Source: Xanthobacteraceae bacterium (GTDB taxonomy: Bacteria; Pseudomonadota; Alphaproteobacteria; Rhizobiales; Xanthobacteraceae). Taken from it: 64,000 bases of DNA. The notes under the pieces are model-generated. The model worked only from the letters and a program-made list of their open reading frames with translations, did no database searches and was not told the DNA's origin. The stretch's first letter is position 1. Each line of letters begins with the position of its first letter. The translations under genes and the position numbers were made by a program. Of this stretch, positions 169-54,551 are shown in pieces. The stretch covers positions 1 through 64,000 of the forward strand of contig JAQSWY010000006.1 in NCBI GenBank assembly GCA_029266425.1, in the 5' to 3' direction.

Positions 169-2436
169 ATGCCTGATCTCCTGCTTGAACTGTTCTGCGA
201 GGAAATCCCCGCGCGCATGCAGGCCACCGCGGCGGACAATCTGAAGAAGCTGGTGACCGATGCGCTGGTCGAGCGCGGCCTCATCTATGAGGGCGCCAAG
301 GCCTTCGTGACGCCGCGCCGGCTCGCGCTCGCGGTGCACGGCCTGCCTGCGGGCCAGCCGGACACCCATGAGGAGCGCAAGGGCCCGCGTGTCGGCGCGC
401 CCGAGGCGGCGATCCAGGGCTTCCTCAAGGCGGCGGGGCTGGCCTCGATCGACGAGGCGACGATCGAGAGCGATCCGAAGAAGGGCGAGTTCTATGTCGC
501 CCGCATCCACAAGCACGGCCGACCGACGCCGGCGGTGATCGCCGACATCGTGCCCGAGATCGTGCGCACCTTCCCGTGGCCAAAATCCATGCGCTGGGGT
601 TCCGGAACCTTGCGCTGGGTGCGGCCGCTGCAATCCATCCTCTGCACCTTCGGCCCGGAGACCGAGGAGCCGGAGGTGGTGCAGTTCGAGATCGACGGGC
701 TGAAGTCCGGCGACCTCACGCGCGGCCATCGTTTCCTCAGCGAAGGCGACATCAAGGTTCGCCGGCTCGACGACTGGATGGTGAAGCTGGAAGCGGCCCA
801 TGTCGTCGTCGACCGCGAGCGCCGCAAGGACATCATCCTCAACGACGCCAAGGACCTCGCCTTGGCGCAGGGGCTGGAACTGGTCGAGGATCCGGGCCTG
901 CTGGAGGAGATCGCCGGCCTCGTCGAATGGCCGGTGGTGCTGATGGGCGAGTTCGAGGAGGCCTTCCTCGACATCCCCGACGAGGTGATCCGCGCCACCA
1001 TCCGGGCCAACCAGAAATGCTTTGTCTTGAAGGACCCCAGGACCGGCCGGCTGGCGAACAAGTTCGTGCTGGTGTCGAACCTCGTCGCGACGGACGGGGG
1101 AGCGGCGATCGTCGCCGGCAATGGCCGGGTGATCCGCGCCCGCCTGTCCGACGCAAAGTTCTTCTGGGACACCGATCGGAAGGCGACGCTGGAAAGCCGG
1201 CTGGGCAAGTTCGAGAACATCACCTTCCACGAGAAGCTGGGCTCGCAGGCGGAGCGGATCGGGCGCATTGCGAAGCTGGCCCGCGAATTGGCACCCGTCG
1301 TTGGCGCCGATCCGGACTTGGCCGAAAAGGCCGCCCGCCTCGCCAAGGCGGACCTGCTGACCGAGGTGGTGGGCGAGTTCCCCGAGGTGCAGGGCTTGAT
1401 GGGGAAGTATTACGCCCGGTTGGAAGGCCTGCCGGAAGAGATCGCCGCGGCGAGCGAGGAGCACTACAAGCCGCAGGGGCCGAGCGACCGCGTGCCGACC
1501 GCACCGGTTTCGGTGGCCGTCGCGCTGGCCGACAAGATCGATACGCTGGTCGGCTTCTGGGCCATCGACGAGAAGCCTACGGGGAGCAAGGACCCGTATG
1601 CGTTGCGCCGCGCGGCGCTGGGGGTGGTACGTATCGTGCTGGAGAACGGGGTGCGGCTGAAGCTCGGCGTTAGCACCCTGAGTTCAACTAGAGTGATTTT
1701 GAGGCTCTTGGCGGAACGCACTCTTGTAGAGATGCGCGAGAATGAGGCGAAGCTAAAGAGCGAATTCGAAGTTGCGCGATCTCTTCCCTTTGCGATGGGG
1801 ATTCAAAGAGGCGCGGAGGCCGAAGGGTTATGGCTGTACCACCAGCGTCTCGCCGATGAGTTCGAAAGTACGCGAGAGTCGTGGGTTAGCGAGCGGGAAC
1901 CGAAACTTGTACTGGAACTCCTCACTTTCTTCGCCGACCGCCTGAAGGTTCATCTTCGCGAGCAGGGTGCTCGGCACGACCTCGTCGATGCCGTCTTCGC
2001 GCTCGAAGGCCAGGACGATCTGCTGCTCATCGTCCGCCGCGTCGAAGCGCTCGGCCGCTTCCTCGGCACCGATGACGGCAGGAACCTCCTCACCGGCTAC
2101 AAGCGCGCGGCGAACATTCTGCGCATCGAGGAGAAGAAGGACGGCGTCTCGTACACGGGCAGCGTCGATGCCGCACTGCTCGAGGCGCCAGAGGAACGCG
2201 CCCTCGAGGAAGCCATCGCCGCCGCCACACCGCGCATCGACGACGCGCTCGCCCGCGAGGATTTCGAGGGCGCAATGAGCCTCATCGCCACGCTGCGCGC
2301 GCCGGTCGATGCCTTCTTCGAGAAGGTCACGGTGAACGCGCCCGATGCCGCGCTGCGGGCCAATCGGCTGCGCCTGCTCGCCGACATCCGCTCCGCGACC
2401 CGGGCGATCGCGGATTTCGACCGGATCGAAGGGTAG
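169..2436 (+). CDS. glyS: Glycine--tRNA ligase beta subunit
   Basis: Beta subunit of the heterotetrameric (alpha2beta2) bacterial glycyl-tRNA synthetase, which charges tRNA-Gly in the cytoplasm. The N-terminus ([17 protein letters not shown]) is the family's characteristic opening and fixes the start, although I see no strong ribosome binding site. The segment around residues 470-497 ([14 protein letters not shown]) and the later [20 protein letters not shown] block are typical alphaproteobacterial GlyS and lead into the C-terminal anticodon-binding region. At 755 residues it is slightly long for the family. Residues about 500-584 (bases about 1666-1920) are odd: the codons there (TTA, CTA, GTA, AGT, ACT, AGA) are unlike the GC-rich codons on either side, although the reading frame is intact. 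glyQ is presumably just outside the window. Confidence 0.96.
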
Positions 2437-2449
2437 CGCCTAGGGAACG

Positions 2450-2540
2450 ACCTCATCCTGAGGTGCCGCACGCGGCCTCGAAGGATGCTGAGACAGGACG
2501 GCCCCATCTGCGCGAGCATCTTCGAGGCTCGGATGAGGTG
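2450..2540. repeat. Family A palindromic intergenic repeat
   Basis: The motif CCTCATCCTGAGGTGC, then CTCGAAGGATG, with an inverted partner ending in GGATGAGG. Related copies lie at 41069-41173 and 45703-45748. It matches the style of REP-like elements scattered between genes in Hyphomicrobiales. Confidence 0.7.
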
Positions 2541-2554
2541 GTAAATTAAGGTTG

Positions 2555-2580
2555 GGAACCTTCCCCTACCTCCGGCCGTT
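2555..2580 (+). promoter_or_regulatory. EcfG-type promoter for the DUF3096 gene
   Basis: GGAAC (2555-2559), 17-base spacer, CGTT (2577-2580). This is an exact match to the EcfG consensus GGAAC-N16/17-CGTT of alphaproteobacterial general stress promoters. It ends 31 bases upstream of the ATG at 2612, and the cognate sigma factor is encoded at 16892-17446. Confidence 0.75.
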
Positions 2581-2611
2581 CTCCGCACGCCATCCTGCGG
2601 AGCCCGTTCCC

Positions 2612-2755
2612 ATGCAGATCGACGTCATCACCCTTCAGCCGATCGTCGCCCTGGTCGCCGGCATACTGATCCTCGTGATGCCGCGCCTCTTGAACATGAT
2701 CGTGGCCGTCTACCTCATCTTCATTGGCGTCGTCGGGCTGATGGGCAAGTTCTGA
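2612..2755 (+). CDS. DUF3096 small membrane protein
   Basis: A 47-residue protein made almost entirely of two hydrophobic helices (about residues 9-25 and 29-43) around a PRLL turn. It matches the DUF3096 family of small inner-membrane proteins of unknown function. I chose the ATG at 2612 because the protein then opens MQIDVITLQP, the usual start for this family; longer frames upstream read through the promoter. The exact EcfG-type promoter just upstream suggests induction in the general stress response. The function is not known. Confidence 0.85.
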   Translation: MQIDVITLQPIVALVAGILILVMPRLLNMIVAVYLIFIGVVGLMGKF

Positions 2756-2779
2756 CGCCTGCCCATCGCGCCGTGGCGA

Positions 2780-3178
2780 TCAGTCCTTCTTCAGCATCGC
2801 ATCGAGGCTCCAGGGCCCGGGACCCGCGAAGAACAGATAGAAGAAGACAAAGCAGTACAGCACCGCCAGCTCGCCTTGATTGACGATTGGGAAGAAGTTT
2901 TGCGGCGCGTGCACCATGAAATAGGCAACCGCCGTGAAGCCCGAGAGGATGAAGGCGACCGGCCGGGAAAACAGGCCGATCAGCAGCAGGATACCGCCGA
3001 CCAGTTCGATCAGGCCGGATAGCCCGCTGAGCGATGAGAAGTCGATCCCGATGTGCCGCCCCGGCGGGAAACCGAGGACCTTCATGGTGCCGTGCTGCAA
3101 TAAGAGCAGCGCCGACATGATGCGTAGCAGGCTGAGAACGCGTGGCGTCCAGCTCCCTAAAGTCGTTTCCATTGACAT
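2780..3178 (-). CDS. DoxX family membrane protein
   Basis: A protein of about 132 residues with four predicted membrane helices, matching the DoxX family (relatives of the thiosulfate:quinone oxidoreductase subunit and many uncharacterised membrane proteins). The segment LLLLQHGTMKVLGFPPG and the following GLIELVGGILLLIGLFSRP block are typical. The start at 3178 (MSMETTLG) has an alternative in-frame ATG at 3172. It converges on the DUF3096 gene with a 24-base gap and diverges from ppdK. Its substrate or redox partner cannot be told from sequence. Confidence 0.85.
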   Translation of the reverse strand: MSMETTLGSWTPRVLSLLRIMSALLLLQHGTMKVLGFPPGRHIGIDFSSLSGLSGLIELVGGILLLIGLFSRPVAFILSGFTAVAYFMVHAPQNFFPIVNQGELAVLYCFVFFYLFFAGPGPWSLDAMLKKD

Positions 3179-50650: not shown

Positions 50651-51175
50651 TCACAGTTCCGCGAGCGCGCGCGCCTCGGCAAGGCTCAGCGCGCGCGGCG
50701 CCGTGCCGTCGAAATAGAGGAAGCGCAGGCGCTTGCGGCGCGACACCATGCTTGCCGGCAGCGGATCGTAGCGGAACGAGCCGCCCCCCAAATGCGGCAT
50801 CACGGCGCCGATGTCGGTGACGTCCTCGGTCTCGACCCGCAACAGGCTGAGCCGGGCGCCGGCGGCGTCCGTGGCATCGAACGGCACGCGGGCCAGCCGC
50901 AGGAAGCTGGTCGGATCGCTGGACGTCGTGAAGCTCTCGACGAAGGCCTTCTCGACAAGGTCGAGGTCGGCCTCGCTATGGCCATGCTCAAGCTCGGCTT
51001 GAGCATCCGGCAGGTGCGGCGTCTGCCACTGCGCGACGCGCTGCGGGCCATGGCCGTGATTGTGGCCGGGGCCGTGCGAATGGCTGCCGGGCGAATGATC
51101 GCCGTGGGAATGGCCATGGGAGTGCGAATGCCCGCCCCCGCCAAGGTCGTGATGATGATCGTGCCCGCGATGCAT
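50651..51175 (-). CDS. Histidine-rich protein, candidate nickel chaperone for GdmH
   Basis: A 174-residue protein I do not recognise. Residues 1-44 hold 16 histidines (pattern HDHHH, then HSHSHGHSHGDH, then HSHGPGHNHGHG), like the metal-storage tails of HypB, UreE or SlyD. The remaining 130 residues form an apparently compact mixed domain (for example LDLVEKAFVESFTTSSDPTS, LLRVETEDVTDIGAVMP, RRKRLRFLYFDGTA) with no GTPase motifs. It follows gdmH on the same strand, with a family D repeat between. The context (riboswitch-controlled gdmH, NikR-type operator at hupE) makes nickel delivery the leading guess; a zinc or copper role is not excluded. GAAGGA precedes ATG 51175. Confidence 0.7.
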   Translation of the reverse strand: MHRGHDHHHDLGGGGHSHSHGHSHGDHSPGSHSHGPGHNHGHGPQRVAQWQTPHLPDAQAELEHGHSEADLDLVEKAFVESFTTSSDPTSFLRLARVPFDATDAAGARLSLLRVETEDVTDIGAVMPHLGGGSFRYDPLPASMVSRRKRLRFLYFDGTAPRALSLAEARALAEL

Positions 51176-51330: not shown

Positions 51331-52554
51331 TCAGTAGCTCACCGGCTTGTCGATCATGTGCTTGTGGCTGCCGAGCTTCCCGTGGGCGACCATCGAGCCG
51401 AGCGCCTCGACGACGACACGCAGGCCGAACAGCGCGGTGATGTCGGAGGTGTCGTACGGCGGCGAGACCTCGACCACCTCCAGCCCGCACAATCCTTCGG
51501 CGGCGACGAGGCCGAGGATCTTGAGCGCCTCGCGTGGCAGGAAGCCGCCCGGTTCCGGCCAGCCGGTGCCGGGCACGAAGCCGCAATCGATGCTGTCGAC
51601 GTCGAACGAGATGTAGACCGCGTCGGCATCCTTCCAGGCGAGCTCCAGCGCGATCTCGGCGGTCTTCTCCAGCCCGATCTTCTCGATGTCGGCGATGGTC
51701 AGCACGTTGGTGCCGCGCTTCCTCGCCTCCTCGACGCCGTAGCGCGGCACCTGCCAGCCGCCAATGCCGAGCTGCACCAGGTTCTTCGGCGAGACGTTCG
51801 GCAGGTTTGTCGCCCAGTACCAGGGCGTGGTGTGCATGCGCTCGTCAAGATCCTTTTCCTGGATGTCGATGTGGCGGTCGAAATGGATGATGCCGATGCG
51901 CTTCGAGGTGCACTCGGCAATGCCGCGCACGCAGGGGAAGCCGATCGAATGATCGCCGCCCAGCATGATCGGCAGCGCCCCCGACGAGAACACGTGGGAG
52001 ACGCCGCGGGTGATCTGGTCGAAGCTCTTCTCGAGGTTCGCGGGGATGGTGAAGACGTCGCCGGCGTCGCACAGCGTCATCTGCTCGCGCAGGTCGACGC
52101 CCAGCTCGTAATTGTAAGGCGTGTAGAGCGCCGAGATGCGGCGGATGCCCTGCGGCCCGAAGCGGGTGCCGGGGCGATACGTGGTGCCAGAGTCGAACGG
52201 GATGCCGAGCACGGCGGCGTCGTACTTGCCGACGTCGCGGACATTCTCGACATAGGGCGCCTTGAGGAAGGTGTTGATGCCCGCAAAGTGCGGCAGCTCG
52301 CCCCGCGCGAATGTCGGGATCGACTTGTCGGTAATGGAATCGGCGCCGGGCAGGCCCATGTCGAGCGCCCATTGCTGCTCCTTGCGCCAGCCGTCGGAGG
52401 AAAGGTTCTCCTCGGCCTCGAGCGCCTTCCAGCCCTGCATCTCGCGAATTTCGAAATTGGGATGGTGGCGGCGCAGGCGCTCGCCTGGCGGCGCAAGGCC
52501 GGCGAAGCGGGCCGAACGGATGGGATAGGCGCCACAAAGGGTACGAAGCATCAT
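51331..52554 (-). CDS. gdmH: Nickel-dependent guanidine hydrolase (ureohydrolase family)
   Basis: A 407-residue ureohydrolase predicted to split guanidine into urea and ammonia. Motifs: LGGDHSIGFP (metal histidine); HFDRHIDIQEKDLDERMH, where the usual DAHxD is DRHxD but the D/H/D ligands remain; YISFDVDSIDCGFVPGTGWP, with tryptophan where agmatinases have threonine; and LEVVEVSPPYD. The roughly 90-residue N-terminal extension and the PGTGWPEPGG motif are features I associate with GdmH (Synechocystis Sll1077 type) rather than agmatinase. A guanidine-I riboswitch sits 97 bases upstream. Nickel supply is implied by hupE next door. GGGAG precedes ATG 52554; a second ATG is at 52551. Confidence 0.85.
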   Translation of the reverse strand: MMLRTLCGAYPIRSARFAGLAPPGERLRRHHPNFEIREMQGWKALEAEENLSSDGWRKEQQWALDMGLPGADSITDKSIPTFARGELPHFAGINTFLKAPYVENVRDVGKYDAAVLGIPFDSGTTYRPGTRFGPQGIRRISALYTPYNYELGVDLREQMTLCDAGDVFTIPANLEKSFDQITRGVSHVFSSGALPIMLGGDHSIGFPCVRGIAECTSKRIGIIHFDRHIDIQEKDLDERMHTTPWYWATNLPNVSPKNLVQLGIGGWQVPRYGVEEARKRGTNVLTIADIEKIGLEKTAEIALELAWKDADAVYISFDVDSIDCGFVPGTGWPEPGGFLPREALKILGLVAAEGLCGLEVVEVSPPYDTSDITALFGLRVVVEALGSMVAHGKLGSHKHMIDKPVSY

Positions 52555-52650
52555 GGTCTCCCGTTCTGCGGGAAAGCCCATGCGCTCGGCAGCTCGGGGG
52601 AAGGATGCGGGCAGATGCCGGCGGCCTTCGCTGCGACCTCGTCGCACGAG

Positions 52651-52752
52651 CCTCCCGGGCTTTTGTCCCGCCGTGGACCCGGCGAATGTCTCGCCGCCGG
52701 GCTGCCCCTCTCGGTCCAGCCGCATCGCGCACGATGCCGGAACCCTAGGGGC
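52651..52752 (-). promoter_or_regulatory. Guanidine-I (ykkC) riboswitch upstream of gdmH
   Basis: On the minus strand, the aptamer blocks appear in order: CCCTAGGGTTCCGGC (ending near 52737), GGCTGGACCGAGAGGGGCAG (consensus CUGGUCCGAGAG, one base different), then CCACGGCGGGACAAAAGCCC and GGGAGG (ending at 52651). The CGGCGGGA-AAAA-GCCCGGGAG end is the most diagnostic part of the class. About 96 bases of expression platform follow to the gdmH ATG. They contain a small CTCGTGCGACGAG hairpin but no T-run, so translational control or Rho-dependent control is more likely than an intrinsic terminator. Confidence 0.88.
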
Positions 52753-52814
52753 CTTTTGAAGGTAGCAATGGTTTCGCGCGAAGCGAAGCCTCGATTTTCG
52801 GCAGAAGCGCCGAA

Positions 52815-52864: not shown

Positions 52865-53464
52865 TCAGATCACCCCGACCAGCAGGCCGACGCCGGCGAC
52901 CGCAACCACGGCGCCGAGCGCCTGGCTGAAGCGCGGCGCGTTCGTGCCGATCCGGCCGATGGCAAGGCCGACACCGATGCCGGCAGCATGCAGCAGCGCG
53001 GTCGCGACGAGGAAGCCGGCCGCGTAATCCAGCCCGGAGGCATCCGCCGGCATCTCGGCGCCATGAGCGAAGCCATGGAAGATCGCGAAGGCGCCGACCA
53101 TCGCCATGGCAGCGCCAAGCGGCCAGTTGGCCGAGCGCAGCGCGACGACGCCGCCCAGTACGATGACCGAGGCGGCAATCCCGATCTCGGCGAACGGCAC
53201 GTTGAGCCCGGACATGCCGAGCGCGCCGCCGACCGCCATCAAGGCGACGAAGCTCGCCGGCACCGCCCACAGCGCCCGCCCGCCGAGATTGGCGGCGAAG
53301 ATGCCGACCGCGACCATGGCCAGCACATGGTCGAGCCCGCCGATCGGATGCATGAAGCCATGAACGAAGCCCACCGTGTCGCCATGCCCCGGATGGGCGA
53401 AGGCGAGCGTCGGGCTGAGTGCGAGGAGGGCGGCGAGTGCGGTGCGCAAGGCGATTGTGTTCAT
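52865..53464 (-). CDS. hupE: HupE/UreJ family nickel permease
   Basis: A 199-residue HupE/UreJ protein. The signal-like first helix ends LAFAHPGHG; the family's metal motif follows (GFMHPIGGLDHVLAMVAVGI), and a second histidine motif lies in FAIFHGFAHGAEMP. About six or seven membrane helices. Characterised relatives move nickel (or occasionally cobalt) for hydrogenase or urease. Neither enzyme is here; the adjacent metalloenzyme is GdmH. The NikR-type operator 49 bases upstream supports nickel-responsive control. ATG 53464 follows GGGGAT. Confidence 0.93.
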   Translation of the reverse strand: MNTIALRTALAALLALSPTLAFAHPGHGDTVGFVHGFMHPIGGLDHVLAMVAVGIFAANLGGRALWAVPASFVALMAVGGALGMSGLNVPFAEIGIAASVIVLGGVVALRSANWPLGAAMAMVGAFAIFHGFAHGAEMPADASGLDYAAGFLVATALLHAAGIGVGLAIGRIGTNAPRFSQALGAVVAVAGVGLLVGVI

Positions 53465-53512
53465 GCTTGAATCCCCGTAAGCGGCGGCCCCGCGTACGTG
53501 ATGCGCGCCCGC

Positions 53513-53540
53513 GTATGACGTTTTTATGAAAACAGCATAC
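53513..53540 (-). promoter_or_regulatory. NikR-type nickel-responsive operator
   Basis: GTATGA (53513-53518), 16 bases, GCATAC (53535-53540): one mismatch from the E. coli NikR operator GTATGA-N16-TCATAC. The symmetry extends outward by one base (C...G) and inward through GTTTT/AAAAC. It lies 49-76 bases upstream of the hupE ATG. nikR itself is not in the window. The rest of the 305-base gap up to the upp stop shows only a short GCGCGGG-AGATGCT direct repeat (about 53592-53625) and a partial family C repeat at 53722-53760. Confidence 0.75.
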
Positions 53541-53721
53541 GACGGGAGCGGGGGGCGTCAATCGCCTTTTCGCACCTGCGAAGGGCCTCTGCGCGGGCGC
53601 AGATGCTCGTGCGCGGGTAGATGCTTAGCCGGCTTTTACCCTGCGCATGTGATTTGGCATCCCGTTGGGGCAGGATGTGCAGATGTCCGTAACGCGCCCC
53701 GCGTTGAGCGCCGTCGGAACG

Positions 53722-53760
53722 GCCCTCTCCCCAGCCCTCCCGGCAAGCGGGAGAGGGAGA
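53722..53760. repeat. Family C repeat, partial copy
   Basis: CCCTCTCCCCAGCCCTCCC and GCAAGCGGGAGAGGG form an imperfect hairpin just past the upp stop codon. Confidence 0.5.
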
Positions 53761-53769
53761 AGAGCGGCT

Positions 53770-54417
53770 CTACTTCGTCCCGAAGATGCGATCCCCGGCG
53801 TCACCGATACCGGGCACGATATAGCCGTGCTCGTTCAGGTGGCTGTCGATCGCCGCGGTATAGACCGGCACGTCCGGGTGCACCTCGTGGAAGGTCTTCA
53901 GCCCCTCTGGCGCGGCGATCAGGCAAACGAACCTGATCGACTGGCAGCCTGCCGCCTTCACCTCGGCCACCGCGGCGGCGGCGGAATTGCCGGTCGCCAG
54001 CATCGGGTCGAGCACGATCGCGGTGCGCTCCGAGATGTCGCGTGGCAGCTTCAGATAATACTCCACCGCAGCCAGCGAGACCGGATCGCGATAAAGCCCG
54101 ATATGACCGACGCGGGCGGCGGGAAGGATGTCCAGCATGCCCTCCAGTATGCCGCCGCCGGCGCGCAGCACCGAGACCAGGCACAGCTTCTTGCCCGCCA
54201 CCACGGGGGCCATCATCTTCGCCAGCGGCGTCTCGATCTCCACCATCTCCATCGGCATGTCGCGCGTCACCTCATAGGCGAGCAGCATGCTGATCTCGCG
54301 CAGCAGCAGCCGGAACTCATTGGCCGCGGTCTTGGTGCGGCGCATCAGGGTCAGCTTGTGCTGGATCATCGGGTGGTCGACGACGAGGGTCTGACCGGCA
54401 TCGGCGGGGCTTGTCAT
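53770..54417 (-). CDS. upp: Uracil phosphoribosyltransferase
   Basis: Converts uracil and PRPP to UMP. The 215 residues carry [37 protein letters not shown], the PRPP-binding loop [16 protein letters not shown], and the uracil-binding [18 protein letters not shown] 54417 gives near-standard length; an ATG at 54456 would add 13 residues. It is divergent from the URC1-type gene. In yeast the URC6 step of uracil catabolism is exactly this reaction, so here it probably feeds catabolism as well as salvage. Confidence 0.95.
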
Positions 54418-54484
54418 GAGGGCGTCGGCTCGCTGGGGAAGGATGTGGTCGGGCATGCGAAGCGCGTGCCGTTCCCAAGCATGA

Positions 54485-54496
54485 GCGCAATTCGCG
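54485..54496. promoter_or_regulatory. Candidate operator half in the upp/URC1 divergent region
   Basis: GCGCAATTCGCG, a near-palindrome that resembles the perfect palindrome at 54552-54566. Both contain the core CGC(G)AA-TTCGCG. Confidence 0.35.
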
Positions 54497-54551
54497 TGCG
54501 CGGGAAGGTACCCGATACGTGAAGCGCCCGGTGATCCTCCCACTTGCAGCG

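Follow-up and report, generated by a model that had tools for sequence, protein, structure and literature searches.

The closest described counterpart of the site considered here is the NikR operator of nikABCDE in Escherichia coli, which lies in the promoter of a nickel importer and possesses GTATGA-N16-TCATAC arms with a span of 28 bp (PMC7055735). The NikR signal of the enterobacteria has been given as GTATGAT-[N13/14]-ATCATAC and that of the delta-proteobacteria as GTGTTAC-GTAACAC (PMC545781). The palindrome in front of hupE in the 64,000-nucleotide stretch of DNA analyzed here (the window) shares with the E. coli operator the type of arms, the span and the location in the promoter of a putative nickel importer. 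However, its target is hupE, one base of its arms differs, its inner half-sites are symmetrical too, and the gene for its regulator appears to have been deleted. As with the enterobacterial signal, it is an inverted repeat of 27-28 bp, while the delta-proteobacterial consensus does not fit it.

A second system for comparison is the metformin hydrolase operon, where, as in the window, hupE is found alongside genes for nickel-dependent ureohydrolases (PMC11399263). The neighbors described there are hypA and hypB, and that text does not mention NikR (PMC11399263). Among the papers listed on NikR, hupE, guanidine and nickel, most of them judged by title and opening of the abstract, none describes a guanidinase cluster in which NikR regulates hupE.

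The hupE promoter and its surroundings

The sequence GTATGACGTTTTTATGAAAACAGCATAC at positions 53513-53540 has the form GTATGA-N16-GCATAC, with the position and letters first described for it. The claim of the initial annotation that it lies one base from the NikR consensus was confirmed, as 11 of its 12 arm bases are those of GTATGA-N16-TCATAC in the form printed in PMC7055735. The full inverted repeat is longer, extending over 30 bp (53512-53541, CGTATGnnGTTTTnATnAAAACnnCATACG), of which 24 are self-complementary by hand count; in addition to the NikR arms, its interior is symmetrical as well (GTTTT..AAAAC). The start codon of hupE is the ATG at 53464, leaving 48 bases between palindrome and gene. 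The designation as a NikR-type operator, which is assigned to neither strand, is based upon this palindrome, shuffled controls and comparison with relatives.

When arms and palindrome were scored together, the site reached 15.5, a value never attained when the 290-bp promoter region was subjected to 5000 mononucleotide shuffles; the weakest site in a relative scored 12, which was attained by 43 of 5000. The exact arms, GTATG-N18-CATAC, occur once in the 5.67 Mb of the genome. Taken alone, the arms are not special when mismatches are allowed, with three matches in the 64-kb window at up to two mismatches against 1.54 expected. At one mismatch there are 14 matches in the genome against 11 for the reversed pattern, and 16 against 19 in the sister genome G022; among the matches listed for the 30 genomes of the genus, the forward pattern is not clearly commoner than the reversed one. 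A wider NikR regulon can therefore not be claimed from the counts. A simple inverted-repeat search missed the operator at 53513-53540, presumably owing to its interior mismatches.

The sole sigma-70-like site found between 53400 and 53800 is TTGACG-16-TATGCT on the minus strand (53561-53534), with a -35 element at 53561-53556, a 16-nt spacer and a -10 element, TATGCT, at 53539-53534. The operator encloses the -10, and the -35 overlaps the position once occupied by the nikR stop codon. The palindrome is located where a repressor of this promoter-like site would sit.

The genes downstream, all on the minus strand, fit the nickel context that had been proposed for hupE. The hupE product (52865-53464, 199 aa) belongs to the HupE/UreJ family (PF04955, E 5.9e-56; 189.2 bits against a cut-off of 23), and its role as a nickel carrier is putative, based on the presence of nikR beside it in relatives and on the nickel ureohydrolase type encoded downstream. 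Between hupE and the guanidinase gene is a guanidine-I riboswitch (52650-52759; RF00442, 92.9 bits against an Rfam gathering score of 63), in agreement with the earlier suggestion of a guanidine signal for the enzyme. The guanidinase gene of the gdmH type (51331-52551) encodes a member of the arginase family. Its start was set at 52551, since the mechanical open reading frame extends to 52725 and overlaps the riboswitch. The best match among known structures is 7esr/7oi1 (E 4.2e-161), labeled 'Probable agmatinase 2' in the structure table, which we take to be GdmH. The motifs GTTYRPG and GTGWPEPGG align with this structure, and by hand-matched numbering the protein has both residues of the rule for guanidine specificity, Thr97 and Trp305 (PMC11410670).

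Beyond the guanidinase gene, a histidine-rich open reading frame (50651-51175, minus strand) precedes a gene for 5-aminolevulinate synthase. It has no Pfam or NCBIfam match and is found in all nine nikR-bearing clusters, and its product is a possible nickel storage or delivery protein. On the other side of hupE, the neighbor in the window is upp, encoding uracil phosphoribosyltransferase (53770-54543, minus strand, as listed and with a provisional start). In nikR-bearing relatives, nikR is located between these two genes. The sister G022 also possesses genes for an NMT1-type binding protein, a permease and an ATPase between the guanidine riboswitch and gdmH (L067, 7150-10151, plus strand). The window lacks these three genes, and its riboswitch lies directly next to gdmH.

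A nikR relic between upp and hupE

The initial annotation had proposed looking for nikR in the genome. The assembly (G000) comprises 5.67 Mb in 222 contigs, with a completeness of 91.65% and a contamination of 7.51%, and a search of this incomplete sequence for NikR_C (PF08753) returned no match; what was found was a relic at the syntenic place. With the NikR of G022 as the tblastn query, the sole match in the genome is at 53626-53712 on the minus strand (59% identity, E 2e-5). The relic (53558-53706, minus strand) is homologous to G022 nikR from approximately codon 121 to the stop. The tblastn match reaches codon 119 (53712), and the ungapped homology begins near codon 121 (53706). It contains indels and is frameshifted after its conserved part, and it possesses neither the DNA-binding domain nor the nickel ligands.

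In the alignment with G022, a junction of 63 bases (53707-53769, minus strand) and the 3' piece of nikR link upp to the hupE promoter, the junction taking the place of approximately 120 codons at the start of nikR together with part of the spacer between upp and nikR. By eye, an inverted repeat that is GC-rich and imperfect, CCCTCTCCCG..CGGGAGGG..GGGAGAGGG, can be made out in the junction, and we take it to resemble the dispersed palindromic repeats of related bacteria. A pattern for this repeat with up to three mismatches had no matches in the window and missed even the junction itself, so the search is of little weight as evidence on a mobile or repeated element at this place.

G000 is sister to the nikR-bearing G022 (support 100/100). 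The first 13 codons of the relic differ from G022 by seven synonymous changes and one non-synonymous change, as if the protein had been under selection until lately, while the later codons, in the variable tail, have diverged freely. Judged from these few codons, the deletion of nikR is probably recent and followed long purifying selection. Over the whole relic, 30 of 142 columns differ when gap columns are set aside, a figure that may equally be compatible with a loss further in the past. The operator differs between the two genomes at one of 30 positions, its flanks at 4 of 21 and 9 of 47, and the fourfold sites of hupE at 30 of 124; at a divergence of 20%, the probability of zero or one change in 30 positions is approximately 0.01. 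Part of this low divergence is due to the -10 that the operator contains, and the needs of the promoter itself could account for part of the conservation of the palindrome. That selection has kept the operator since the loss of nikR is not claimed here, as the predominance of synonymous changes in the relic suggests that the loss was recent.

The genome has other nickel-related genes, with two strong matches and a weak third to the urease alpha subunit and NicO-type matches in two places, and no match to the CbiM family (PF01891). Three further tandem HupE/UreJ-like matches, of which one falls short of the family cut-off, are present on contig C17 (L077, 28434-30215, plus strand), and the same trio is found in G022.

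nikR, operator and leader among relatives

Among 30 genomes of the genus searched with the NikR_C profile, 23 had some match. A canonical NikR was found in nine (G004, G008, G009, G012, G015, G018, G020, G022 and G023; E 5e-28 to 1.2e-30) and only a diverged type in 14 (E 2.9e-15 to 1.4e-13), with G012 possessing both. In all nine genomes the canonical nikR is a single-copy gene located 95 to approximately 410 bp upstream of hupE and nowhere else, in the order upp-nikR-hupE-gdmH. The G022 protein contains a ribbon-helix-helix domain (PF01402, E 2.1e-8) and NikR_C (PF08753, E 1.6e-29), the other eight having been assessed for NikR_C only, and it aligns with E. coli NikR (1q5v, E 7.5e-43) at all four nickel ligands, which in E. 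coli are His76, His87, His89 and Cys95 (PMC7055735). The QH, HVH and C ligand positions are shared by all nine canonical sequences. A guanidine-I riboswitch was detected in each of the five loci searched (L067, L068, L073, L080 and L083), three of which bear nikR.

A related palindrome lies between nikR and hupE in 9/9 nikR-bearing relatives, with scores of 12-16, so both the earlier assignment as a NikR-type operator and the expectation that hupE orthologues would share it were upheld. With up to two mismatches allowed, seven of the nine match GTATGA-N16-TCATAC. Imperfect operators, with 8 or 9 of 10 arm bases, are those of G008, G009, G012, G015 and G020, and that of G018 and G023 is GTATGCTGATTTGGTCAAATCATCATAC, which resembles the enterobacterial signal. 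The cluster itself occurs in 17 genomes, comprising that of the window, the nine with canonical nikR and seven without it (G003, G010, G011, G016, G024, G025 and G026, with G025 encoding the diverged type). In these seven, approximately 180-250 bp separate upp from hupE, and the highest scores are 9.5-10.5, so that none reaches 12. Specifically, G010, G011 and G025 retain CTATGCTCGCCGTGCCAAATCATCCTAC, which amounts to one good half-site and the -10; G003 retains TTGACG and TATGCT, the remainder of the repeat being gone; and G016, G024 and G026 have no trace of the palindrome. The pattern in the first four looks like decay of the operator with the promoter kept. Scores of at least 12 occur in 15 of 924 windows of 290 bp in the 17 loci, operators included, and at seven positions outside the operators. 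When the joint loss of operator and nikR was placed on the tree, there were three independent pairs, two concordant and one without a difference (sign test, p 0.5). The correlation is not significant, the independent events being few.

A second conserved element is found just before the hupE start. In 15 of the 17 clusters this leader has the form GCAGACGTACGCACCGG(n)CCGAAGGCGGCCTGCC and is invariant except in the loop of a hairpin (for instance L068, 6255-6312, plus strand). The exact pattern is present once each in 15 of 296 genomes of the family, all in this genus, and is absent from G000 and G022. RNAalifold predicted 15 pairs, two with changes on both sides; owing to the invariance of the sequence, covariation neither supports nor rejects most of the fold. 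A search of four of the 15 leaders (L068, L073, L080 and L083) against Rfam returned no family match. The leader is a candidate for a new structured regulatory RNA.

The operator-type site is also NikR-like beyond hupE, next to genes for the diverged NikR. This type gave 15 NikR_C matches, 11 of which became loci L050-L060, and in 10 of these 11 an exact GTATGA-N16-TCATAC is located within a few hundred bases of the gene. In L060 (1414-1959, minus strand; PF08753, E 2.5e-14), the protein has ALSVPLDHTTSVDV at the positions that in canonical NikR are held by two His and the Cys ligand, and a divergent DUF4198 gene lies beside it (1927-2814, plus strand), both features having been checked in this locus. 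Outside the genus, the nikR-hupE-gdmH triad was not found among the best 80 of at least 533 hupE loci. Seven of these 80 contain nikR, and the one of the seven that also contains gdmH is L085, from Ancylobacter lacus, a member of the genus. Among nikR-hupE pairs of other Alphaproteobacteria, L158 and L160 possess repeats of the GTATGA..TTCATA(A)C type between the genes, with the spacing in L160 one base shorter than in the window. A palindrome with 9 of 10 arm bases is located 89 bp upstream of the hupE match in L089; L140 has separated half-sites only, and L088 and L111 have no clear palindrome at this spacing.

A probable orphan operator and its significance

Based on these comparisons, we infer that the ancestor of the locus encoded NikR between upp and hupE, with the palindrome as its operator. 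Nickel-loaded NikR would have bound the hupE promoter at its -10 and start region, halting import when nickel was plentiful, and the riboswitch would have allowed guanidine to induce the nickel enzyme. Approximately the first 120 codons of nikR would then have been deleted in the lineage of the window, probably recently, with the promoter, operator and hupE retained. The neighboring nikR having been reduced to a broken stub, hupE is probably free of nickel control, its transcription most likely no longer repressed by the metal, and the operator would be an orphan that has not yet decayed. We assign this explanation a probability of roughly three in four. The proposal of the initial annotation that the locus responds to two signals, nickel for the importer and guanidine for the enzyme, is plausible for the nine relatives but not for this genome as assembled, in which a relic is all that was found of nikR. 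That annotation had also named two observations that together would speak against its interpretation. The absence of nikR from the genome was indeed encountered, while the lack of conservation of the palindrome was not.

The alternatives concern either the protein that occupies the palindrome or the reality of the deletion. A nikR relocated to unassembled sequence is possible because the genome is 91.65% complete and in 222 contigs, with 7.51% contamination, and an operator nearly unchanged from that of G022 is what would be expected if it were still in use. However, canonical nikR is a single-copy gene confined to this locus in all nine genomes that bear it, and the upp-hupE locus itself is assembled, relic included, which makes an intact gene elsewhere unlikely, though it is the strongest of the competing explanations. 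The same conservation, one change in 30 positions against approximately 20% in the flanks, together with the inner GTTTT..AAAAC symmetry outside the NikR arms, could instead indicate that another DNA-binding protein now holds the site. This is improbable: a recent loss of nikR would leave the palindrome conserved without any new reader, sites that match its arms lie next to other NikR-like genes in the genus, and the palindromes of relatives without canonical nikR are decayed or absent.

Slightly less probable still is an assembly artefact or a mixture of strains, the real genome having nikR before hupE. The contamination and the dependence on the assembled sequence as sole source leave room for it, but the relic has substitutions, indels and a frameshift of its own and adjoins a new junction, unlike a simple misjoin. 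That the palindrome is a chance inverted repeat within a promoter deserves hardly any credence. Although arm matches with one mismatch occur at the background rate in this genome (14 against 11 reversed), no shuffle reached the score of the site, and the related palindrome in place in 9/9 nikR-bearing relatives is strong evidence to the contrary.

The orphan operator may also belong to a broader pattern, which we put forward tentatively and as rather less likely than otherwise. Specifically, the control of hupE in these clusters could consist of interchangeable layers. One would be a NikR operator gained and lost together with nikR, the other the leader found in 15 of 17 clusters, possibly a translational riboswitch for nickel or guanidine. 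Both would be gone or altered in the lineage of the window, and the locus would form a before-and-after series in which this genome represents the stage where the repressor has already been lost and the operator has yet to decay.

In the relatives, the locus would join the supply of nickel to the demand of a nickel enzyme, with NikR controlling the importer and a guanidine riboswitch controlling the guanidinase. The window adds a warning that an operator alone is a poor guide to control, as the site looks functional while its reader appears to be gone. With the regulator apparently deleted and the operator intact, it stands beside relatives in which the operator appears to have decayed already, and such series make it possible to study how long an operator persists once its repressor has been lost.
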